The notes under the pieces: model-generated
Told to the model about the DNA's origin: nothing
The model's database searches: none
The model's input: only the letters and a program-made list of their open reading frames with translations
Made by a program: the position numbers and the translations under genes
From: Spirochaetota bacterium
GTDB lineage: Bacteria > Spirochaetota > Spirochaetia > Treponematales > UBA12059
Direction of reading: 5' to 3'
Length of the DNA: 64,000 bases
NCBI GenBank assembly: GCA_022703505.1
Contig: JAKLDN010000006.1
Coordinates: 186,001 to 250,000 of the forward strand
Shown here: piece after piece, positions 35,466 through 46,312 of the stretch
Layout: each line of letters starts with the position of its first letter
Position numbering within the stretch: the stretch's first letter is position 1

Positions 35466-36701
35466 TCACGCCTCCGGGCGCAAAAAGACCCGAGTGTCGG
35501 GCTCCTCGGCCCGGGGCATCGGGGATCGAAGCCCCTCCGGCCGGGTGAGCAGGATGAAGGACATGTCATCCTGCTGGGGAGCCGTCCCCCGGTGCAGGTC
35601 GAGAGCCCCGGGCAGGGCGTCCCGTAGTGCCCGGCCGCCCCGAAGCGCCTTCTGGACCAGGATCGCCAGGCGGCGTTCCCCCAGTTCCCCTCCCTCCGCA
35701 TCCTCCTGCTCGGGGATCCCGTCGCTGTAGACGAAGAGGGCGTCCCCGTCCCGCAGGCGCCAGCGGCGCAGGACCGGCTCGAGATTCGGCTCCACCCCGA
35801 CGGGAAGGTTGCGGTGCCCGGGATCCAGCCGCCGGGCCCGTCCTTCCCGGAAGACCAGGGCGTGGGCGTGTCCCATGTCCGCGGCCTCCAGGACTCCCGT
35901 CCGGGGATCGTAGACCCCGAAGAAGCCGGTGAGGTACTTCTCCAGGTGGAAGGTGGCCACCAGGGCCTCGTTCAGGGACCGAAGGAGGGCGTACAGCCCC
36001 CTCCGGAAATCGAACATCCTCAGCATGCCCCAGACCAGGGATACGACCAGGGATGCCGCGACCCCCTTTCCGGAGACGTCGCAGAGGGCGAAGAAGGCCC
36101 TCCCGTCCTCCAACCGCTTGGAATACCAGAAATCCCCGCCGACCCCCTTGGCCGGCCGGGACCAGGCCTCGAACCCGTACAGCCGGTTCGAGAGAGCCTC
36201 GTTCCCCGCCTCCAGGCGCTCCTGGATCCTGCCCGCCAGGTCGATATCCTCCTCGGTTATCCGGGAAAGGTGCTCCGCCAGGTCCCGGGACGAAAGGATC
36301 GCCCGGAACCGTCCCTCCGCGTCCACGAGTACGCGGTACGGAGAATCCGCCGCCGCTTTCCCGGTTCCTGCGGCGAAGAGGCTCGCGTGGCAGTCCATGC
36401 GGGGCGCGGACTCGGCCAGTTCCCAGGCTCGGGTGCGACCCAGGACCTCCCGGCCGAAGGGCTTGCCCAGGAGGGAGAACAGTCCTTCCCGGGTCAGAAT
36501 GCCGGCGGGCCGGCCCTCCTCGTCCAGGAGTGCGAGGACTTCCACCTCGGGCCGTCTGCCCAGCTCGTCCGCCAGCGCCGTGGCGGTCACGTCCCGGGAG
36601 GCGAAATGGCGATGCCGGGCGGCCTTGAGAACCGTGGTACCGTACTCCCGGGTCGCCTCGGCTTCCAGCACGAGCCGGGATTGCTGTGTCTGCGGGTTCA
36701 T
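35466..36701 (-). CDS. SpoIIE/RsbU-type PP2C phosphatase with CBS-like N-terminal sensor
   Basis: 411 residues from ATG 36701; a GTG at 36710 is an alternative and neither has a strong ribosome site. The N-terminal part (about 10-165) contains two CBS-like units (VLALLDEEGRPAGILTREGLFSLLG and RVLVDAEGRFRAILSSRDL). The C-terminal part is a SpoIIE phosphatase domain with KGVGGDFWYS, CDVSGKGVAASL, DMGHAHALVF and YSDGIPE, which hold the metal-binding aspartates. Such enzymes dephosphorylate anti-sigma antagonists. The divergent STAS and kinase genes next door are its likely partners. Confidence 0.92.
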   Translation of the reverse strand: MNPQTQQSRLVLEAEATREYGTTVLKAARHRHFASRDVTATALADELGRRPEVEVLALLDEEGRPAGILTREGLFSLLGKPFGREVLGRTRAWELAESAPRMDCHASLFAAGTGKAAADSPYRVLVDAEGRFRAILSSRDLAEHLSRITEEDIDLAGRIQERLEAGNEALSNRLYGFEAWSRPAKGVGGDFWYSKRLEDGRAFFALCDVSGKGVAASLVVSLVWGMLRMFDFRRGLYALLRSLNEALVATFHLEKYLTGFFGVYDPRTGVLEAADMGHAHALVFREGRARRLDPGHRNLPVGVEPNLEPVLRRWRLRDGDALFVYSDGIPEQEDAEGGELGERRLAILVQKALRGGRALRDALPGALDLHRGTAPQQDDMSFILLTRPEGLRSPMPRAEEPDTRVFLRPEA

Positions 36702-36762
36702 GGGCACCACTATGGAGATTTCCGGTCAGCGAAGGATGAGGACCCCGTGAATTCTATGTTTT

Positions 36763-36790
36763 CTAGCCCCCGGCTAACGGGGCCCTAACT
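36763..36790 (+). promoter_or_regulatory. Pho-box-like triple direct repeat before the STAS gene
   Basis: CTAGCC-N5-CTAACG-N5-CTAACT, with an exact 11-base period (36763, 36774, 36785). PhoB-type regulators bind direct repeats with this spacing. The array lies between the divergent phosphatase and STAS genes, 44 bases before the STAS ATG. Similar arrays precede the metallophosphoesterase and pstS genes. Confidence 0.5.
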
Positions 36791-36833
36791 CCCGGTCCGC
36801 ATCCTTCGACTCGATCGAAAGCCAGGAGGCACC

Positions 36834-37145
36834 ATGGAGTGGACGCTCGTCTCGACGGATCATGACCGCGGCGTGGAAATCCGCCTGACCGGGGATCTGG
36901 ACCTGTACAACGCACCCCGGTTCAGCATCTACGTACTGCAGAAGATCGAGGTGGGATGGTCGAAGATCCTACTGGACATGAGGGGAGTAGAGTACCTCGA
37001 CTCGACCGGGGCGGGATCCCTCATCCGGATCGCCCAGGCGCTGCGGAAGAAGGGGGCGAAGCTTCGCTGCCGCAACCTGGGCGGCTCGCCGCGACGGGTG
37101 CTGGAGATGGCGAACATCCTTCCGCTCCTGGAAGAGACCCGGTAG
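36834..37145 (+). CDS. STAS-domain anti-sigma factor antagonist
   Basis: 103 residues forming one STAS domain. The regulatory serine lies in YLDSTGAGSL, where SpoIIAA and RsbV proteins are phosphorylated by their cognate kinase. Unphosphorylated antagonist binds the anti-sigma factor and frees the sigma factor. AGGAGG precedes the ATG. The next gene encodes the expected ATPase/kinase partner, and the divergent gene the phosphatase, so the three parts of a partner switch are together. Confidence 0.92.
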   Translation: MEWTLVSTDHDRGVEIRLTGDLDLYNAPRFSIYVLQKIEVGWSKILLDMRGVEYLDSTGAGSLIRIAQALRKKGAKLRCRNLGGSPRRVLEMANILPLLEETR

Positions 37146-37151
37146 GCGCCC

Positions 37152-37715
37152 ATGGGACGACTGATCGTACGGAAACTGATCGTGGACGAGCGAAACGAGC
37201 TCTTCGACGCCCAGGGCATGCGGCGGATCGAGTTCCCCAGCGAATTCGAGAGAATCCGGGACTACGCGGCGGAAGTGCTACGGGACTGCCCCGAAGCCTT
37301 CCGGGAGGGAAACCTCCTGGAACAGCAGCTGTCGGAGATCATCAAGAACGGGATCAAGCACGGGAATCGCTGCGATCCTGCCAAGCGGCTCCGGGTCTGG
37401 TTCGATTTCCGGAAGCGGGTCCGCTTCATCGTCGAGGACGAGGGGGAGGGATTCGCGGACTTGGAGGCCTGGAACGAGTTCTACCGGAAGCGGCAGGAGG
37501 CCCTGCATGCCGAGGATTTCGACACCTTCCTGGCGATGGCCAGCTACCGGGGCCCCCGGAGCGACGACATGGACGGAGGGAACAGCCTCGTCGCGGCCCT
37601 GGAGTACTGGAACGGGGGCATGATATACAACGGCGTCCGGAACAAGGTGGGCGTCGTACGCTGGTATACCGGGGGTTCGGACCAGCCGCCTGCGCCGAGG
37701 AGCGACCGTTCCTAA
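37152..37715 (+). CDS. Anti-sigma regulatory factor, GHKL ATPase (RsbW-like)
   Basis: 187 residues. The GHKL fold is marked by the N box QQLSEIIKNGIKHGNRC (Mg-binding asparagine), the G1 box VEDEGEGF, and a later DMDGGNSLVAAL that takes the place of the usual G2 box. An insertion between the boxes (about residues 100-140) is longer than in RsbW or SpoIIAB. It probably phosphorylates or binds the STAS protein encoded six bases upstream. Its sigma factor is not in the window. Confidence 0.85.
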   Translation: MGRLIVRKLIVDERNELFDAQGMRRIEFPSEFERIRDYAAEVLRDCPEAFREGNLLEQQLSEIIKNGIKHGNRCDPAKRLRVWFDFRKRVRFIVEDEGEGFADLEAWNEFYRKRQEALHAEDFDTFLAMASYRGPRSDDMDGGNSLVAALEYWNGGMIYNGVRNKVGVVRWYTGGSDQPPAPRSDRS

Positions 37716-37739
37716 CCGTTTCTTGACGATTCCCTCACG
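37712..37739 (+). promoter_or_regulatory. Pho-box-like triple direct repeat before the metallophosphoesterase
   Basis: CTAACC-N5-TTGACG-N5-CTCACG with an exact 11-base period (37712, 37723, 37734), ending eight bases before the ATG at 37748. TTGACG could also serve as a -35 box, but no matching -10 box fits before the start. Its first half touches the stop of the preceding kinase gene. Confidence 0.45.
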
Positions 37740-37747
37740 CCGGAGTC

Positions 37748-38848
37748 ATGAGGATGAGGTTTAATCTCACCATGAAGTTCAAGGAATTCCTCGCGTCCTT
37801 CGCCTCGTTCCTGTCCGAATGCCCCCGGGAGGAAGCCGGCCGGAGCTCCCGGTACGTCTTCCTGAGCGACTTGCACATGGGCGACGGGGGTACCCGGGAC
37901 GACCTGGCCCACAACCGGGAACTGTTGGAAGCGATCCTGGCCCGGCACTACCTGGAGCGGGGCTACACCCTGGTCCTGAACGGGGACATCGAGGATCTTT
38001 CGAAGTTCCGATACTCCGACATCCGTACCGCCTGGGCCTCTTTGTACGAGGTGTTCGACGCCTTCGCGAAGGCAGACCGCCTCCGGAAAATCGTGGGCAA
38101 CCATGACCTGGGACTGCTCAAGATCCGGGACTATCCCTACGGACTGATCCACGGGCTGGTCCTGGAACACGGCCCCGACCTGCTTTTCGCCTTCCACGGC
38201 CACCAGGGATCCCCCTTCTTCACGAACCACGACTACATCTCCCATTTCGTGGTCCGGTACCTAGCCAAACCCCTGGCCATCAAGAACTCCAGCGTGGACG
38301 ACCACGGGAAGCGGAGGTTCCGCCTGGAGCGGAGGATCTACCGGGCGTCCAAGGCCCTCGGCGTAGCGTCCGTCATCGGGCACACCCACCGGCCCCTCTT
38401 CGAGTCTCGGTCGAAGTACGACAGCCTGCGCTGGGCCATCGAGGAGCTGGTGGCGGAGTACCCTTCCGCGACGGGGGGCCGGCGGACGGAGATCGCCGAC
38501 CTCGTCGGCCTGTACCGGTCCGAACTGGCCCGCATGGGCCGGAAGGAGCTCTCCCGGGACCTCGCGGGCAGCCGCTACTACCGGGAGCGCATCCTGGTTC
38601 CCTGCCTCTTCAACTCCGGCTGCGCCACGGGCCGCCACGGTATCACCGCCCTGGAGCTCGCGGACGGGGCCCTGTCCCTAGTCCAGTGGACGGGCGCGGC
38701 GGGTCCCAAACCCTACCTGCGTAGGGAGGCCCTGGAAGCGGAGCCCCTGGAGGGGACCCCGAACGTCCGATACCTCCTTCGTCGATCGGACCTGGACCAC
38801 GTCTTCGCCCGGATCCGGCTTCTGGGACGGGAACTGCCGCCCGCATGA
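37748..38848 (+). CDS. Calcineurin-like metallophosphoesterase
   Basis: 366 residues. The metallophosphatase core has all signature blocks: FLSDLHMGDGG (D-x-H), LVLNGDIEDL (G-D), VGNHDLGLL (G-N-H-D), a histidine in FHGHQGS, and VIGHTHRPLF (G-H-x-H). No signal peptide is seen, so it is cytoplasmic. It sits between signalling genes and the pst operon with a Pho-box-like array upstream, which suggests a role in phosphate recovery; the substrate is unknown. In-frame ATGs at 37754 and 37772 are alternative starts. Confidence 0.85.
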   Translation: MRMRFNLTMKFKEFLASFASFLSECPREEAGRSSRYVFLSDLHMGDGGTRDDLAHNRELLEAILARHYLERGYTLVLNGDIEDLSKFRYSDIRTAWASLYEVFDAFAKADRLRKIVGNHDLGLLKIRDYPYGLIHGLVLEHGPDLLFAFHGHQGSPFFTNHDYISHFVVRYLAKPLAIKNSSVDDHGKRRFRLERRIYRASKALGVASVIGHTHRPLFESRSKYDSLRWAIEELVAEYPSATGGRRTEIADLVGLYRSELARMGRKELSRDLAGSRYYRERILVPCLFNSGCATGRHGITALELADGALSLVQWTGAAGPKPYLRREALEAEPLEGTPNVRYLLRRSDLDHVFARIRLLGRELPPA

Positions 38849-38869
38849 GGGCTCTCGATCCTCCTCGAT

Positions 38870-38886
38870 TTAACGATCTGCTAACA
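38870..38886 (+). promoter_or_regulatory. Pho-box-like direct repeat before pstS
   Basis: TTAACG-ATCTG-CTAACA, two units 11 bases apart, within a locally AT-rich stretch about 85-100 bases before the pstS start. It resembles the TTMACA-N5-TTMACA or CTTAAC-type Pho boxes of other phyla. The PhoB/PhoR pair encoded downstream would be the regulator. Confidence 0.5.
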
Positions 38887-38969
38887 TTTCCCACGTCAAG
38901 GCCTAATCTTGCGCGCCTATGGTAGACGCGGGTTCGCAAGGACCCGCAGCATCCCACGGGAGGAAACGG

Positions 38970-39950
38970 ATGAAGAAGAGAATCGCGAGCATCGCGCTGG
39001 CCGTCGTTGCCGTCGGCGCCTACGCGCAGGGCATGTTCACCTGGATCGACAAGGTCAGCGACGACAAGGACAAGATCCTGCCGGGCGTCAATCCCGCGGC
39101 CGTCACCGGCACCATCGTCACCGCCGGCTCGTCCACGGTCTTCCCCCTCTCCGAGGCCGTCGCCGAGCAGTTCAAGAAGGACGGCTTCGCCGGCCAGATC
39201 ACCATCGACTCCATCGGCTCCGGCGCCGGGTTCGACCGCTTCACCAAGTCCGGGGAAACGGACATCTCCAACGCCTCCGCAAAGATCAAGGCCAGCCACA
39301 TCGAGGCCGCCGCCAAGCTCTCCCCGCCCCGGGTTCCGATCGAGTTACGGGTCGGCACCGACGCCATCGCGGTCTGCGTTTCCACGAAGAACAAGTTCGC
39401 CAAGGACGTTACCATGGCGGAACTGGCCAAGATCTTCTCCACCGCCGTGTACTGGTCCGACGTGCGCCCCGAATGGCCCAAGAAGGAGATCAAGAAGTTC
39501 TCCCCGGGCACGGACTCCGGGACCTTCGAGTACTTCGTGGAGCACGTGTTCAAGAAGGACCGCAAGCCCCTCCTGGAAGGCAAGAACCTCCAGCTCTCCG
39601 AGGACGACAACATCCTGGTCCGGGGCATCGGCGGCGACCAGTACGCCATCGGCTACTTCGGCTTCGCCTACTACCTGGAGAACCAGAAGTCCCTGCAGGT
39701 CCTGGCCCTGGACGGCGTGGCCGCCAACCAGGCGAACGTGGACGCCGGCAAGTACGCCCTATCCCGCCCCCTCTTCCTGTACTCCGACGCCGGGATCATC
39801 AACGCCAAGCCCCAGGTGGCCGCCTTCCTGACCTACTACCTGACCTACGTGAACGACCTGATCAAGAAGGTCGGGTACTTCCCCGCCCCCGCCGCGGATC
39901 TCAAGGCCTCCAAGCAGGCCCTGGCGGCCGCGATGAAGGGCCGGTTCTAA
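38970..39950 (+). CDS. pstS: Phosphate ABC transporter periplasmic binding protein
   Basis: 326 residues from ATG 38970 with GGAGGAAA upstream; a longer start at 38919 would bury the signal peptide. KKRIASIALAVVAVGAYAQG is the signal peptide. The phosphate-binding motifs AGSSTVFPLSEAVAEQFKKDG, DSIGSGAGFDRFTKSGETDISNAS and the later PGTDSGTFEYF are clear. It captures phosphate outside the inner membrane for PstCAB. An unusually strong hairpin separates it from pstC. Confidence 0.96.
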   Translation: MKKRIASIALAVVAVGAYAQGMFTWIDKVSDDKDKILPGVNPAAVTGTIVTAGSSTVFPLSEAVAEQFKKDGFAGQITIDSIGSGAGFDRFTKSGETDISNASAKIKASHIEAAAKLSPPRVPIELRVGTDAIAVCVSTKNKFAKDVTMAELAKIFSTAVYWSDVRPEWPKKEIKKFSPGTDSGTFEYFVEHVFKKDRKPLLEGKNLQLSEDDNILVRGIGGDQYAIGYFGFAYYLENQKSLQVLALDGVAANQANVDAGKYALSRPLFLYSDAGIINAKPQVAAFLTYYLTYVNDLIKKVGYFPAPAADLKASKQALAAAMKGRF

Positions 39951-40032: not shown

Positions 40033-40106
40033 CATGACCAGAGCCGAGGCCGTCCCGGAAGGGGTCCGCCCTTCCGCCGGCCTTGAAAGCCAGCGAGATG
40101 CCACGC

Positions 40107-41039
40107 ATGCAGCACGGACATTATAGAGAGGAGACCACCGGCGTCCTTTCCCTGGCGCGGCGGTCCCGGCCCTGGGAACAGGCGATCCAGTCGTTCCTGT
40201 TTTTCTGCGCCGCCGTCTCGATCCTCACCACCCTGGGAATCGTCCTCACCCTGGGGACCGAGTCCTGGACCTTCTTCAAGCACGTCAGCCCCTTCGAGTT
40301 CCTCTTCACCTTCGAGTGGCAGCCGATGATCGAGCGGTTCGGGATCTGGCCGCTCTTCACGGCCACTTTCATGACCAGCCTGGCCGCCATGCTCATCGCC
40401 CTGCCCCTGGGACTGGGGGTGGCCATCTACCTCTCCGAGTACGCCCCGAACGCCGTGCGGGAGACTTTGAAGCCGATCCTGGAAGTCCTCGCGGGGATTC
40501 CAACCGTCGTGTACGGCTACTTCGCCCTGACCGTGGTGACGCCCCTCCTGCGCAACGTCTTCGGCCAGGACCGGGTGGACGTCTACAACACCTTGAGCGC
40601 GGGGCTCGTCATGGGGGTGCTGATCCTGCCCCTGGTGAGCTCCATGTGTGAGGACGCCCTCTCCTCGGTGCCGAACTCCCTGCGGGAAGCGGCCTACGCC
40701 ATGGGAGCCACGAAGCTGGAACTCTCCCTGAACGTCATGGTTCCCTCCGCGTTTTCCGGGATCGCCGCGGCCTTCATCCTGGGCCTGTCCCGGGCAGTCG
40801 GGGAGACCATGATCGTGGCCCTGGCCGCGGGTGCGGGACCGAACCTCACCCTGAACCCCTTCAAGGCCGCGGAGACCATGACCGGGCACATAGTCCGGAT
40901 CTCCGGCGGGGACATCGGGTACGACACCGTCGACTACCAGAGCCTCTTCGCCATCGCCCTGGTCCTGTTCTTCGTGACCCTCGGCCTGAACGTCCTTTCG
41001 CGCCGGATCATCCGGAAATACGGGGAGGTGTACGAATGA
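40107..41039 (+). CDS. pstC: Phosphate ABC transporter permease PstC
   Basis: 310 residues from ATG 40107; ATG 40098 and a TTG at 40083 are alternatives because no ribosome site decides. It has six membrane helices and the permease loop EAAYAMGATKLELSLNVMVPSAFSGI, plus PTVVYGYFALTVV and SRAVGETMIVALAAG, which are typical of PstC. It pairs with PstA. The 3' end overlaps pstA as ATGA. Confidence 0.92.
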   Translation: MQHGHYREETTGVLSLARRSRPWEQAIQSFLFFCAAVSILTTLGIVLTLGTESWTFFKHVSPFEFLFTFEWQPMIERFGIWPLFTATFMTSLAAMLIALPLGLGVAIYLSEYAPNAVRETLKPILEVLAGIPTVVYGYFALTVVTPLLRNVFGQDRVDVYNTLSAGLVMGVLILPLVSSMCEDALSSVPNSLREAAYAMGATKLELSLNVMVPSAFSGIAAAFILGLSRAVGETMIVALAAGAGPNLTLNPFKAAETMTGHIVRISGGDIGYDTVDYQSLFAIALVLFFVTLGLNVLSRRIIRKYGEVYE

Positions 41040-42301
41040 GCTCCGAAACCGCATCCGGCGCCGCCCCGACCTTCCGGACGGACCTGACGGGAAGGTACCG
41101 AAGAGGAAACGTATGGGCCGCCCTTTTCCTGACGGTCACCCTCCTTTCGGTGTTCTTCCTGGCCGCCCTGATCTGGACCATCGTGAACGATTCCTTCGGG
41201 TACGTGATCCTGGTGAACGAGACGGATCCGGAATCCCTGACCCGGGACGGCAGACCCCTGGAGGAGCTCGACGCCCCCTCCCTCGCCGCGGTCCTGGAGG
41301 AGAACCTTCCGGGTAGACGGCTCCGCTCCCTGGGCAACGAACGCCCCCTGGCCGAGCGATCCCGGGAGGACCTGTACGCCATCGTGATGGACGAGGTCGT
41401 GAACCCCGAGGTGAAGGCGACCTTCGACCTCTCCGAGTCGCTCCTGGCCAAGGAAGACATCCGGGCGGTCCTGGAGCGGGATTTCCCGGAGGGCCGGCTG
41501 ATCTTCCGGGCCTGGCTCAATCTCAAGTTCCTGGGCGCCGCCCAGTCCAGCGTGGCCGTCGCGGCGGGGGTCCGGGGGGCCGTCCTGGGCACCTTGATGA
41601 CCATCCTGGTGACCATCCTGGTCGCCTTCCCCGTCGGCATCGGCGCGGCGATCTATCTGGAGGAATACGCCGCGGACAACCGCCTGGGCCGTTTCATCCG
41701 GATCAACATCTACAACCTGGCCGGGGTTCCCTCCATCATCTACGGCATGCTGGGACTGGCCCTCTTCGTGCGCCTGGCGGAGCCCTTCACCTCGGGGACG
41801 GCCTTCGGGGCCGCCGCGGACCCCACCACCGCCAACGGCCGGACCGTGCTGTCCGCGGGGCTCACCCTGGCCCTCCTCATCCTGCCCGTGATCATCATCA
41901 ACGCCCAGGAAGCCCTTCGGGCCGTGCCCGGGATCCTCCGGCAATCCAGCCTGGCCGTGGGCGCCACGAAATGGCAGACCGTGTGGCACCACGTCCTGCC
42001 GGCCTCCTTCGACCGGATCCTGACCGGGACCGTGCTGGCCGTGTCCCGGGCCATCGGAGAGACGGCCCCCCTGGTGGTGGTGGGCGCCTCCACCTTCCTC
42101 TCCCGGGATCCCACCTCCGTATTCTCCAAGTTCACGACGTTGCCCATCCAGATCTACCAGTGGACCGCCCGTCCCCAGGAGGAGTTCCGGCGTATCGCCG
42201 CGGCGGCCATCCTGGTCCTTCTGATTCTGATGCTTTCCCTGAACGCGGTCGCGATCCTGCTGCGGAACCGAATCCGAGCCAAGAAGAGGCTGAGCCGATG
42301 A
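41036..42301 (+). CDS. pstA: Phosphate ABC transporter permease PstA with large periplasmic insertion
   Basis: 421 residues, about 120 more than a typical PstA. The first membrane helix (about 27-48) is followed by a charged, mostly hydrophilic segment of roughly 125 residues before the next helix near 180. The remainder has the standard permease features, including [13 protein letters not shown], the loop [23 protein letters not shown], and [14 protein letters not shown]. Some other PstA proteins have an N-terminal extension (DUF3333); the relation to this one is uncertain. The insertion is likely periplasmic and could contact PstS. Confidence 0.93.
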
Positions 42302-43119
42302 AGAAGAACCTGAACGATTCCAACCGTTTCGAGGTGGCCATCGCCCGGGAGGCGGAGGGCGGAGGCACCTCCCCCTACGCCCTGGAGGTCCGGAACCTGG
42401 ACATCCGGTACGGGGATTTCCCGGCCGTGAAGGACGTGACCATGGCCTTCGACAAGCGCCAGGTCACCGCCATCATCGGCCCCTCGGGCTGCGGAAAGAG
42501 CACGGCCCTACGGGCCTTCAACCGCATGAACGAGCTCATCCCGTCCTGCTCGACCGACGGGGAGGTGCTCTTCCACGGCATCAACGTCTACGACCCCGGG
42601 GTGGACGCGGTCCAGGTCCGGCGCTGGATCGGCATGGTCTTCCAGAAGCCCAACCCCTTCCCCAAGACCATCCACGAGAACATCGCCTGGGGAGCCCGGA
42701 TCAACGGCTACACCGGGGACATGGACGAGCTGGTGGAATCCACCCTTCAACAGGTCGCGCTCTGGGACGAGGTCAAGGACAAGCTTAAACAGAGCGCCCT
42801 GGCCCTGTCCGGGGGCCAGCAGCAGCGCCTCTGCATAGCCCGGGCCATAGCCGTGAAGCCCGAGATCCTGCTCATGGACGAGCCCACCAGCGCCCTGGAT
42901 CCGATCTCCACCGCAAAAATCGAGAGCCTCCTTGACGACCTCAAGAAGCGGTATACGATAATCATCGTGACCCACAACATGCAGCAGGCGGGCCGGGTCT
43001 CGGACAAGACGGCCTTCTTCCTCCAGGGGGATCTCGTGGAATACGCGCCGACCAAGGACCTCTTCTTCAATCCCAAGGACGAGCGGACGGAAAACTACAT
43101 CTCCGGGAGGTTCGGCTGA
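42298..43119 (+). CDS. pstB: Phosphate ABC transporter ATP-binding protein
   Basis: 273 residues from ATG 42298 (ATGA overlap with pstA). GPSGCGKST, the Q-loop in [21 protein letters not shown], signature LSGGQQQR, Walker [13 protein letters not shown] and [13 protein letters not shown] are all present, with the PstB-typical FNRMNELIP. It hydrolyses ATP to drive phosphate uptake. It overlaps phoU by one base. Confidence 0.97.
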
Positions 43120-43778
43120 TGAACACGCGCATCCAGTTCATGGAGGAGTTGACCCGCCTCCACCACGACATCCTGGCCATGGGCACCCGGGTGGAGGAGG
43201 ACCTGCGCCGGGCCCTGGAGGCCCTGCGGACGGGAAACCTGGATCTCGTCCAGGAGGTCAAGGCCGGGGACGAGGTGATCAACGCCCTGCAGATCAAGAT
43301 CGAGGACCAGACCGCCGTCCTCATCGCCACCCAGCAGCCCGTGGCCCGGGACCTAAGGGAACTTGTCACGGTGTTCAAGGTGACGGACAACCTGGAACGG
43401 ATCGGGGACCACGCGGTCCACCTGGCCAAGACGGCCCGGCGCCTGGCGGAGGAGCCCTACGGCCGGTCCCTGGAACGCCTGGAGAGGATGGCGGAAACCG
43501 GATGCTCCATGGTCCGGGAAGCCCTGACCGCCTTCCTGAACAAGGACGCCCTGCTGGCGAAGGACACCGCGAGGAAGGACGACCAGATCGACGCGGACCA
43601 CAAGGCCTTCGTTAAAGAAGTGCTCCAGTTCCTCATGGAGCATCCGGACCGGGCGGCCCAGGCCACCAAGCTGATCGCCACCTCCAGCTTCCTGGAGCGC
43701 CTGGGCGACCACGTCACGAACCTCTGCGAGGCGGTGGTCTTCATGGTGGAAGGCCGCCACGTGGAACTGAACGAGTAG
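43119..43778 (+). CDS. phoU: Phosphate signalling protein PhoU
   Basis: 219 residues made of two similar three-helix PhoU units, each carrying the metal-binding E/D-x3-D type motif (DNLERIGDHAVHLAK and SFLERLGDHVTNLCE). PhoU connects the PstSCAB transporter to the PhoR sensor kinase so that the regulon is off when phosphate is plentiful. The gene order pstSCAB-phoU-phoB-phoR supports this directly. Confidence 0.95.
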   Translation: MNTRIQFMEELTRLHHDILAMGTRVEEDLRRALEALRTGNLDLVQEVKAGDEVINALQIKIEDQTAVLIATQQPVARDLRELVTVFKVTDNLERIGDHAVHLAKTARRLAEEPYGRSLERLERMAETGCSMVREALTAFLNKDALLAKDTARKDDQIDADHKAFVKEVLQFLMEHPDRAAQATKLIATSSFLERLGDHVTNLCEAVVFMVEGRHVELNE

Positions 43779-43781
43779 CCC

Positions 43782-44486
43782 ATGGCCAAGGCTTCCATCC
43801 TGATCGTGGAGGACGACCCGGAGATCCGGGAACTCGTCGGGTTCCACCTGGGCCGGGACGGTTACACGGTGCTCCAGGCGGGCACCGGGGAGGAAGGCCT
43901 CCGGCTGGCCGCCCAAGCCAACCCGGACGTGATCGTCCTGGACGTGATGCTCCCGGGGGTCGACGGATTCGAGGTCCTGCGCCGGCTCAAGGCCGACCCG
44001 GCCCTCCGGCGCGTCCCGGTGATCCTGACCACCGCCAAGGGAGAGGACTCGGACGTGGTGACCGGGCTGGAGCTGGGGGCGGACGACTACGTCACCAAGC
44101 CCTTCAGCCCCAAGGTCCTGATCGCCCGAGTCCGGACGGCCCTCCGCCGGACCGTGGACCTGACCACCCACCCCTTCGGCAAGGAGACCCGGGTATCCCT
44201 GCACGACATCGTCCTGGACTCCGCCCGCCACGAGGTGACCTGCGGGGGGAAGCGGGTTAACCTCTCGGCCACGGAGTTCGCCCTCCTCGAGTTCTTCCTC
44301 AGGAACCCGGGCTGGGTCTTCTCGCGTTCCCAGATCCTGGACGCCGTCAAGGGTCGGGATTATCCCGTGACGGACCGGGCCGTGGACGTGCAGATCCTCT
44401 CCCTGCGGAAGAAGCTCGAGGAGTTCGGCGACCTCATCGAGACCGTACGGGGCGTGGGGTACCGGATGAAGGACGCCGGTTCGTGA
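43782..44486 (+). CDS. phoB: PhoB-like response regulator
   Basis: 234 residues. The receiver domain has acidic residues EDD (10-12), phospho-acceptor D54 in VLDVMLPG, and K near 105 in TKPFSPK. The C-terminal OmpR/PhoB winged helix includes NLSATEFALLEFFLRNPGWVFSRSQILDAVKG and ends RGVGYRMK. It should bind 11-base direct repeats such as those seen upstream of pstS, the STAS gene and the metallophosphoesterase. It overlaps phoR by 4 bases (GTGA). Confidence 0.95.
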   Translation: MAKASILIVEDDPEIRELVGFHLGRDGYTVLQAGTGEEGLRLAAQANPDVIVLDVMLPGVDGFEVLRRLKADPALRRVPVILTTAKGEDSDVVTGLELGADDYVTKPFSPKVLIARVRTALRRTVDLTTHPFGKETRVSLHDIVLDSARHEVTCGGKRVNLSATEFALLEFFLRNPGWVFSRSQILDAVKGRDYPVTDRAVDVQILSLRKKLEEFGDLIETVRGVGYRMKDAGS

Positions 44487-46312
44487 GGCGGGGAAGCCTC
44501 TTCCTCCGCGTACTTCCCCTCCTCCTGGCGGTGTCCGTCCTGACCATGACCGGGATTTCCGTCGTGGGCTTCCTGGCTCTCCGGTCCCTCTACTACGACA
44601 CCAACCGCTTCGCCCTGACCGAGACCGTCCGGGCCCTGGCCAACGGTCTTGCCCCGGAGGCCCTGGAAACCCGGACCGAGGCTCAGGGATTCTGCGTCCG
44701 GGCCGCCCGGGGGACCTCCTTCCGGATCACCTTGATCGCCCGGGACGGGACCGTCCTGGGGGATTCCCGGGGGGATCCCGCGGAGATGGACAACCACGGG
44801 GACCGGCCCGAGGTCCGGGCGGCCCTGGACGGCGAACCCGCCGCTTCCCTGCGGAGGTCCGCCACCGTCGGGGTCGACATGCTCTACGTGGCCGCCCCGG
44901 TCCTCCGGGACGGGGAGACCCGGGGAATCCTCCGGGTATCCCTGGCGGTGCCGGAATTGAGGGAGCGCCTGGCCCCCTTCTACGCCTCCGCGGGGATCGG
45001 GGCCCTCCTTCTTCTGGCTGCCGTGGCCCTGGTGAGCGTCCAGCTGGGACGCCGAGTTGCCCGGCCCGTCGCCGACCTCGGGGAAGCGGCCCGCTCCTGG
45101 GCCGCCGGAGACCTGGGCCGCCGGGTCGGCCGGCTGGAGCCCTCGGAACTCGACCGTCTGGGCCGGACCATGAACGCCATGGCCGCGGAGCTCTCCCGGC
45201 GGATCTCCCTGGACGCCGAGCGCAGCCGGGAGCTGGCCGCCATCCTGGACAGCATCGGGGAGGCGGTTGTCGCGGTGGACGGGGACTACCGCATACGCCG
45301 GGTGAACCCCTCGGCCCTGATACTCTCCGCCCTGGAACCGGGGGAGCGGATGGAGGGGCTGACCCTGCTGGAGGGCTTCCGGAACTCGGAGATCCAGGCA
45401 GCCACGGAGCGGTGCCTGGCTTCCCGGGAGCGGGTGGAGGCGGAGCTCACCCTGTACCGGGAGGTCCCCCGGCATTTCTTCCTCTGCGCCGCGCCCATTG
45501 CCGAGGGCCCGGAGAACCCCGCACCCGGGGCCGTCCTGGTCCTGAACGACATCACACCCCTGCGCAGGCTGGAGCAGGTGCGCAAGGATTTCGTTGCCAA
45601 CGTCTCCCACGAGCTCAAGACCCCCATAACCCTGATCAAGGGCTTCGCGGAAACCCTCCAGGACCGATCGGTCCGGAAATCACCCGACGCGGAGCGCTTC
45701 CTGGGGATCCTCCGCCGCAATGCGGAGCGCATGGACGCCCTGGTGGACGACCTCCTGACCCTGGCCCGCCTGGAACGCCCGGACGCCTCGCCCCTGCGAA
45801 GGGAACCGACGCCCATCCGGCGGATCCTGGAGGACGCGGCCGAGGCCCTGGAGCGACGACGGGTCGAGGGGGGAGCCCGCCTGACGATCTCGTGCCCGGA
45901 GGATCTTACCGCCCTCGTGAACGAGGGGCTCCTGGAGCAGGCGGTCCTGAACCTGACGGACAACGCCCTCAAGTACTCCGGCGCCGGGGCCCGGGTCGAA
46001 CTGGCCGCGGAGGCGGACGGCGACATCCTGGAGATCCGGATCCGGGACGACGGACCGGGAATTCCCGCCCGTCACCTCCCCCGGATCTTCGAACGCTTCT
46101 ACCGGGTGGACAAGGCCCGGAGCCGGGAAGCGGGCGGGACGGGGCTGGGCCTGGCCATCGTCCGCCACATCGCCCTGGCCCACGGCGGGGAGGTTTCGGT
46201 GGAGAGCCGGGAGGGCGCGGGGAGCACCTTCCGAATACGGGTGCCGATGCAGGAGCCCGGCGTCAGGACCCAGGAGTCAGGATCCAGGACGCAGGAGCCG
46301 GGATACGGCTAG
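44483..46312 (+). CDS. phoR: PhoR-like sensor histidine kinase with repeat-derived C-terminal tail
   Basis: 609 residues from GTG 44483. Membrane helices near 8-35 and 168-188 frame an extracytoplasmic region of about 130 residues. HAMP (about 190-240) and PAS (about 250-365) domains follow, then the phospho-acceptor H376 in VSHELKTP, the N box NLTDNALKYS, and G boxes DDGPGIP and GTGLGLAIV. PAS plus position in the pst cluster identifies PhoR. The last 21 residues are encoded by a 7-base CAGGANN repeat tract and look like added sequence. Confidence 0.93.
   Translation: MRRGSLFLRVLPLLLAVSVLTMTGISVVGFLALRSLYYDTNRFALTETVRALANGLAPEALETRTEAQGFCVRAARGTSFRITLIARDGTVLGDSRGDPAEMDNHGDRPEVRAALDGEPAASLRRSATVGVDMLYVAAPVLRDGETRGILRVSLAVPELRERLAPFYASAGIGALLLLAAVALVSVQLGRRVARPVADLGEAARSWAAGDLGRRVGRLEPSELDRLGRTMNAMAAELSRRISLDAERSRELAAILDSIGEAVVAVDGDYRIRRVNPSALILSALEPGERMEGLTLLEGFRNSEIQAATERCLASRERVEAELTLYREVPRHFFLCAAPIAEGPENPAPGAVLVLNDITPLRRLEQVRKDFVANVSHELKTPITLIKGFAETLQDRSVRKSPDAERFLGILRRNAERMDALVDDLLTLARLERPDASPLRREPTPIRRILEDAAEALERRRVEGGARLTISCPEDLTALVNEGLLEQAVLNLTDNALKYSGAGARVELAAEADGDILEIRIRDDGPGIPARHLPRIFERFYRVDKARSREAGGTGLGLAIVRHIALAHGGEVSVESREGAGSTFRIRVPMQEPGVRTQESGSRTQEPGYG
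46250..46305 (+). repeat. Heptad repeat tract (CAGGANN) inside the 3' end of phoR
   Basis: Eight consecutive 7-base units: CAGGAGC, CCGGCGT, CAGGACC, CAGGAGT, CAGGATC, CAGGACG, CAGGAGC, CGGGATA. Partial inverted units (GGACTCCTGTCGCCTG) occur at 46371-46386, so the whole 46250-46386 stretch is a loose palindromic repeat element. The kinase reading frame runs through it until TAG at 46310. Confidence 0.8.

Follow-up and report, generated by a model that had tools for sequence, protein, structure and literature searches.

A partner switch with Pho-box-like divergent promoters in the phosphate cluster of a spirochaete genome

Gene content and repeat arrays of the cluster

We analyzed a stretch of 64 kb (G000:C11:186001-250000; "the window" below means this whole stretch) from a spirochaete genome that totals 3.66 Mb over 14 contigs; its closest contig matches are Treponema/Spirochaetaceae/Breznakiellaceae-type records. 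The window contains a cluster in the order SpoIIE phosphatase (minus strand), STAS, SpoIIAB/RsbW-like ATPase, metallophosphoesterase, pstS, pstC, pstA, pstB, phoU, phoB, and phoR. The phosphatase gene (35466..36710, minus strand, ATG start at 36701) encodes a CBS pair and an RsbU-like, SpoIIE-type PP2C serine phosphatase (Pfam SpoIIE, 9e-33). On the plus strand, the STAS gene (36834..37145) encodes an anti-sigma-antagonist-type protein resembling RsbV and SpoIIAA (Pfam STAS, 1.7e-16; TIGR00377 above cut-off), with its serine in a DSTG loop. The ATPase gene (37152..37715, plus strand) encodes an RsbW/SpoIIAB-like GHKL serine kinase, termed here the Pho-class ATPase, for which neither Pfam nor NCBIfam gave an equivalog identification.

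The remaining genes also lie on the plus strand. The calcineurin-like metallophosphoesterase (37748..38848; Pfam Metallophos, 9.5e-6) more likely starts at ATG 37772 (MKFKEFL, as in the related loci L031 and L032). A -10-like TTTAAT at 37760-37765 lies just 5′ of this ATG, which suggests a leader that is very short or absent. The phosphate-binding protein gene pstS (38970..39950; TIGR02136 above cut-off) probably starts at ATG 38970, behind a good ribosome-binding site (GGAGGAAACGG); the longest open reading frame begins at 38919, within a -10 element. Open reading frames for pstC (TIGR02138, 1e-83), pstA, and pstB span 40083..43119, and phoU (TIGR02135 above cut-off) occupies 43119..43778. 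For the OmpR-family response regulator of phoB type (43782..44486), the best NCBIfam model is TIGR02154 PhoB, at 244 bits and below the curated cut-off of 296; for the phoR/pnpS-type sensor kinase (44483..46312), the best models are PnpS and PhoR, both below their cut-offs.

The residues expected of a partner switch are retained in all three switch proteins. The STAS serine lies in DS[ST]G in 44 of 44 sequences, the ATPase has conserved N and G1 boxes with DGGNSL at the G2 position, and the PP2C metal-binding aspartate motifs of SpoIIE are conserved, with CBS domains in the SpoIIE protein of 21 of 25 relatives. Conservation in the aligned sets was 66-81% for the ATPase vs. 32-66% for SpoIIE. 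The AF2 model of the ATPase (pLDDT 78) is closest to RsbW and to SpoIIAB in complex with SpoIIAA or sigma-F, and that of SpoIIE (pLDDT 90) best matches RssB, SiaA, and SpoIIE phosphatase domains in the PDB. Given these conserved catalytic residues and predicted folds, all biochemical parts of a partner switch appear to be present, and they fit a working switch.

The initial annotation of this DNA had listed three arrays of direct repeats, before STAS, the metallophosphoesterase gene, and pstS, and all three lie where it placed them, at an exact 11-base step: CTAGCC/CTAACG/CTAACT 5′ of STAS (36763..36795, plus strand), CTAACC/TTGACG/CTCACG 5′ of the metallophosphoesterase gene (37712..37739, plus strand; boxes also precede the orthologues in relatives), and TTAACG/CTAACA 5′ of pstS. 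That list was incomplete. It had overlooked a fourth array facing SpoIIE (TTCACG/CTCATC/CTGACC at 11-bp steps, 36724..36751, complement strand), two further repeats of the pstS array, which has four in total (TTAACG/CTAACA/CACGTC/CTAATC, 38870..38908, plus strand), and the -10 elements. The latter are CATAGT for SpoIIE (36709..36714, minus strand) and CATCCT for STAS (36800..36805, plus strand), each 15 nt from the start of the last repeat, and TATGGT for pstS (38918..38923, plus strand), 15 nt from the start of the fourth repeat.

Allowing at most one mismatch, YTAAC-N6-YTAAC matched four times in the 64-kb window, always within these arrays, compared with 0.91 matches expected; 3 of 100 shuffles of the window reached four. 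Scans of the whole genome were pattern searches. The exact dimer has only two matches in the 3.66 Mb, one 5′ of STAS and one 5′ of pstS, and three TNAC at 11-bp steps also occur twice, one occurrence being the metallophosphoesterase array. The boxes are degenerate, so that the strict pattern YTAAC-N6-YTAAC-N6-YTNAC has no match in the genome, and the one-mismatch dimer has 39, too many to inform alone (the reversed-pattern control was not composition-matched for the motif). Each array by itself is only moderately improbable, and evidence from a single genome is suggestive rather than conclusive; it is conservation that decides.

Conservation of the repeats and promoter geometry

Searching contigs with the ATPase gave 47 loci from other spirochaetes, and SpoIIE is divergent from STAS-ATPase in nearly all loci with a close ATPase. 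In a set of 39 SpoIIE-STAS intergenic regions, we counted 35 TNAC pairs at a lag of 11 facing STAS and 18 facing SpoIIE, whereas shuffles of the same regions gave a mean of 0.84 and a maximum of 5; a second peak appeared at lag 22, and no other lag stood out. Conservation of the repeats in related genomes had been named as a check on their reality, and an 11-bp repeat pair is kept on at least one strand in 38 of the 39 regions and on both strands in 30. The SpoIIE-facing repeats are conserved on their strand in 34 of 39 relatives. The regions themselves are scarcely more alike than shuffled pairs (median identity 0.65 vs. 0.62), so the repeat signal does not simply reflect recent common descent.

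The same motif occurs 5′ of pstS in relatives, including genomes that lack the switch (L164, L166, and L168). The matrix scan of relatives proposed with the initial annotation was run with a matrix trained only on 16 pstS upstream sites, which were picked because the repeat was visible there; several called pstS upstream regions have no clear box, some of them probably because of mis-called starts. The scan recovered the motif in the switch promoters of relatives. One of the five best sites of the locus fell inside the SpoIIE-STAS intergenic region in 25 of 37 loci for the STAS-facing strand and in 22 of 37 for the SpoIIE-facing strand. The window's own SpoIIE and STAS boxes score low: at 3.5 and 1.9 bits, they rank 64th and 105th in the 64 kb. 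The case for them as putative Pho boxes rests on repeat number, spacing, and conservation.

A negative control is provided by the paralogous rsbU-V-W-like operons, which encode the same protein families in largely the same genomes and have no boxes. The best matrix score had a median of 11.8 bits in the SpoIIE-STAS region vs. -0.2 bits upstream of these operons (27 whole genomes; P = 6e-8, phylogeny uncorrected).

Matches to YTAAC-N6-CTAACR lie directly 5′ of pst in 11 of 15 GC-rich relatives. Others precede phosphoesterase orthologues, alkaline phosphatase, a chemoreceptor, an EAL-CBS-GGDEF protein, lipoproteins, and substrate-binding proteins. Taken with the pstS sites, the sequence evidence supports reading the repeats as the Pho boxes of this bacterial order. 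Two of the genes just named deserve separate mention. The chemoreceptor gene, for a protein with a single-Cache domain (L205:1500; G057:C14:44302), is preceded by CTAACC/CTAACG Pho-box-like repeats on a contig shared with the switch and pst, hinting at phosphate-regulated chemotaxis. Three Pho-box-like repeats precede the EAL-CBS-GGDEF gene (L194:1500; G101:C34:20958), ∼6 kb from pstC, which suggests a link between phosphate and c-di-GMP.

The spacing between repeats and -10 elements is equally regular. A TANNNT -10 stands in one phase to the repeats in 37 of 68 cases against ∼6 expected (P = 4e-21, phylogeny uncorrected), namely 15 nt from where the last repeat starts, with multiples of 11 added when the last repeats are weak, and this phase is the main peak in STAS, SpoIIE, and pstS promoters alike. 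A composite pattern of two half-sites, spacing, and NANNNT has nine matches in the 3.66 Mb, the SpoIIE and STAS promoters among them. The repeats thus stand in place of a -35 element, with the -10 at a fixed distance, in both the switch and the pstS promoters. This is the known geometry of PhoB-activated promoters, in which 11-nt direct repeats, by which the PHO box is defined, replace the -35 (PMC4415409).

Across the order (197 genomes), the ATPase forms two classes. Members of the Pho class share 63-100% identity with the ATPase of the window and occur in 28 genomes from four families; a second class, ∼50% identical to the window's ATPase, occurs in most of the order. We found pstC in 26 of the 28 Pho-class genomes vs. 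125 of 197 overall (P = 2e-4, phylogeny uncorrected), the search returning no pstC in the other two module-bearing genomes. The module lies within ∼12 kb of pstC in 8 of the 28, in several arrangements, and this varying gene order suggests repeated co-location. The genome of the window also has a paralogous, co-directional SpoIIE-STAS-ATPase operon free of Pho boxes (G000:C8:∼19.7-21.6 kb; L171). The STAS protein of the paralogous operon is unusually conserved, at ∼85% in relatives vs. ∼40% for the Pho-class STAS.

Regulation and output of the switch

Repeat conservation, the pst-trained matrix, the boxless paralogue, and the fixed -10 phase together make Pho regulon membership well supported by sequence, and SpoIIE and STAS-ATPase, the two arms of the switch, are very probably members of that regulon in these spirochaetes. 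The initial annotation had conditionally assigned STAS and its ATPase partner to this regulon and the divergent SpoIIE gene perhaps as well. The former assignment is upheld by repeats 5′ of STAS that are conserved and share the pst-type motif and -10 phase; the latter has gained from the array at 36724-36751, present in 34 of 39 relatives, and from a -10 element of its own. Its reading of the 11-base repeats as PhoB-type sites agrees with the same motif and -10 phase 5′ of pstS in relatives and with the position of phoB-phoR at the end of the cluster.

We consider it highly probable that the SpoIIE-STAS intergenic region holds two divergent promoters activated by a PhoB-type regulator, which would drive the whole partner switch under low phosphate. 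Each promoter would comprise three to four 11-bp direct repeats with a consensus near TTAACNNNNNNYTAACA, replacing the -35, and a -10 ∼15 nt downstream of the point where the last repeat starts. PhoB binding and the phosphate response are predictions: at low phosphate, PhoR would phosphorylate PhoB, which would bind head to tail along the repeats and recruit RNA polymerase, and the CBS-PP2C phosphatase, the STAS antagonist, and the SpoIIAB-like kinase would be made together with Pst and the phosphoesterases. The switch would then act like RsbU/RsbV/RsbW, the kinase phosphorylating the STAS serine and the phosphatase dephosphorylating STAS upon ligand binding to its CBS domains; unphosphorylated STAS would take the kinase away from its target, which could be a sigma factor or some other protein. 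Because PhoB would induce the inhibitor (the ATPase), the antagonist, and the phosphatase together, the direction of the output is not readable from the DNA.

The identity of that target admits more than one reading. It is quite possible, with the balance tilting a little the other way, that the ATPase is an anti-sigma factor and that phosphate starvation frees an alternative sigma factor running a second wave of genes. The likeness of the ATPase model to RsbW and to SpoIIAB with SpoIIAA or sigma-F points in this direction, as do the membership of STAS in the anti-sigma-antagonist family (TIGR00377) and the 11 sigma-70 region-2 proteins of the genome, several of group-2/3 type. There is also a precedent for a PhoB-controlled anti-sigma/sigma pair in Pseudomonas aeruginosa vreAIR (PMC4971064). 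Against it, none of the 11 lies near the module or on contig C11, which carries it, and co-induction of the inhibitor with the antagonist means that net release would need a further signal. Partner switches in other systems, moreover, control non-sigma targets. The initial annotation had proposed that phosphate limitation would release an alternative sigma factor, and such a release is a hypothesis here: the cluster and its contig contain no sigma gene, and the one sigma factor that we followed is not specific to switch-bearing genomes. That group-2 factor (C9:248 kb), followed across 49 genomes, occurs in all 24 module-bearing genomes tested and also in many without the module, and was rejected as a non-discriminating candidate target. 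Membership of the switch in the sigma-B type was likewise rejected, because no sigma gene is linked to it.

The partner or target may instead belong to the X9 family, which we regard as possible and somewhat doubtful. X9 is an orphan protein of ∼390-410 aa encoded directly 3′ of the Pho-class ATPase, and co-operonic with it, in 12 loci (L051:10562-11773, with equivalents in L053, L055-L057, L059, L060, L062, L064-L066, and L068). Of 114 genomes with a switch ATPase, 108 have an X9 paralogue, as do 5 of the 83 that lack such an ATPase, and X9 is present in a second copy in 7 of 28 Pho-class genomes vs. 1 of 169 others (P = 4e-6, phylogeny uncorrected); these associations with switch ATPases are inflated by shared ancestry. 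X9 matches no family in Pfam or NCBIfam, so its binding to the ATPase is a prediction from co-occurrence, and its C-terminal part looks like a degenerate GHKL domain that profile libraries do not recognize. The genome of the window has a single X9, far from the module (L224:4818-5990, minus strand). A broader scenario, which we put forward tentatively and consider unlikely, is that in several families of the order the Pho regulon acquired a duplicated switch by way of a bidirectional Pho promoter. The phosphate response would then have two steps, with PhoB making the switch and an adenylate-type ligand of the CBS-phosphatase deciding whether it fires, and the output would pass through X9 as a new, non-sigma partner family.

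With regard to the regulator, an OmpR-family protein other than PhoB could bind the repeats, or the repeats could report another nutrient signal. Binding to direct repeats about one helical turn apart is common among OmpR-family regulators, and the PhoB model score is under its curated cut-off. We judge this improbable, given that the motif recurs with the same orientation and -10 phase 5′ of pstS throughout the order, module-free genomes included, that it precedes alkaline phosphatase and phosphoesterase genes, and that phoB-phoR closes the same cluster. That chance alone produced the repeats in a single promoter region, to which the 3 of 100 window shuffles lend some color, is negligibly probable and is refuted by conservation in relatives (38 of 39), along with the lag-11 signal, the matrix sites, the boxless paralogue, and the -10 phase.

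Relation to known systems

The reading of the intergenic region as a PhoB-type promoter pair places it beside the PHO boxes of E. coli pstS and the PhoP boxes of B. subtilis, which likewise consist of at least two head-to-tail 11-nt direct repeats that replace the -35 element 5′ of pst or phosphatase genes (PMC4415409). The spirochaete half-site is near TTAAC(A/C), as against CTGTCAT in E. coli and GTTCACC in Streptomyces; in addition, the spirochaete promoters often have four repeats and include a regulatory switch among their targets. No paper defining Pho boxes in spirochaetes was found in the open-access literature searched.

With RsbU-RsbV-RsbW and SpoIIE-SpoIIAA-SpoIIAB, the spirochaete switch has in common a PP2C phosphatase, a STAS protein with the conserved serine, and a GHKL kinase of SpoIIAB-like predicted fold. 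It differs in that the phosphatase has CBS domains and is encoded divergently behind its own Pho box, the G2 box reads DGGNSL, and no sigma gene is clustered with the switch. The paralogous rsbU-V-W-like operon of the same spirochaetes has a homologous phosphatase, STAS, and ATPase (the ATPase ∼50% identical), but it is co-directional, has no Pho boxes upstream, and is found in most of the order, even in genomes that lack pst. For the response of B. subtilis to phosphate starvation, the arm that runs through sigma-B was reported to be Pho-independent (PMC4415409).

The vreAIR system of P. aeruginosa (sigma-VreI and anti-sigma VreR; PMC4971064) is an anti-sigma system expressed directly under PhoB, its inhibitor being induced in low phosphate as well; PhoB control and induction of the inhibitor are predicted from sequence for the spirochaete switch. 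The vreAIR system differs in having an ECF sigma factor and a cell-surface-signalling anti-sigma factor with no phosphorylation-driven switch, and in carrying the sigma gene in the operon; such an arrangement, with ECF sigma and anti-sigma factors in one PhoB-controlled operon, is absent at this cluster. Our search of the open-access literature found no prior report of a complete phosphorylation-driven partner switch under PhoB. PhoB control of an anti-sigma factor is already known; the new element, relative to the papers searched, is a complete partner switch apparently under direct control of a PhoB-type regulator.

Accounts of phosphate starvation usually treat it as a pathway parallel to that of general-stress partner switches. 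By sequence, many uncultured spirochaetes and a few cultured ones appear to have a whole switch placed directly under the phosphate regulator. The locus offers a concrete candidate motif for binding studies, a test promoter that reads in both directions, the boxless paralogous switch as an internal control, and a candidate output family. Identifying the output, if that succeeds, would reveal the route by which these bacteria convert a shortage of nutrients into a broader programme.
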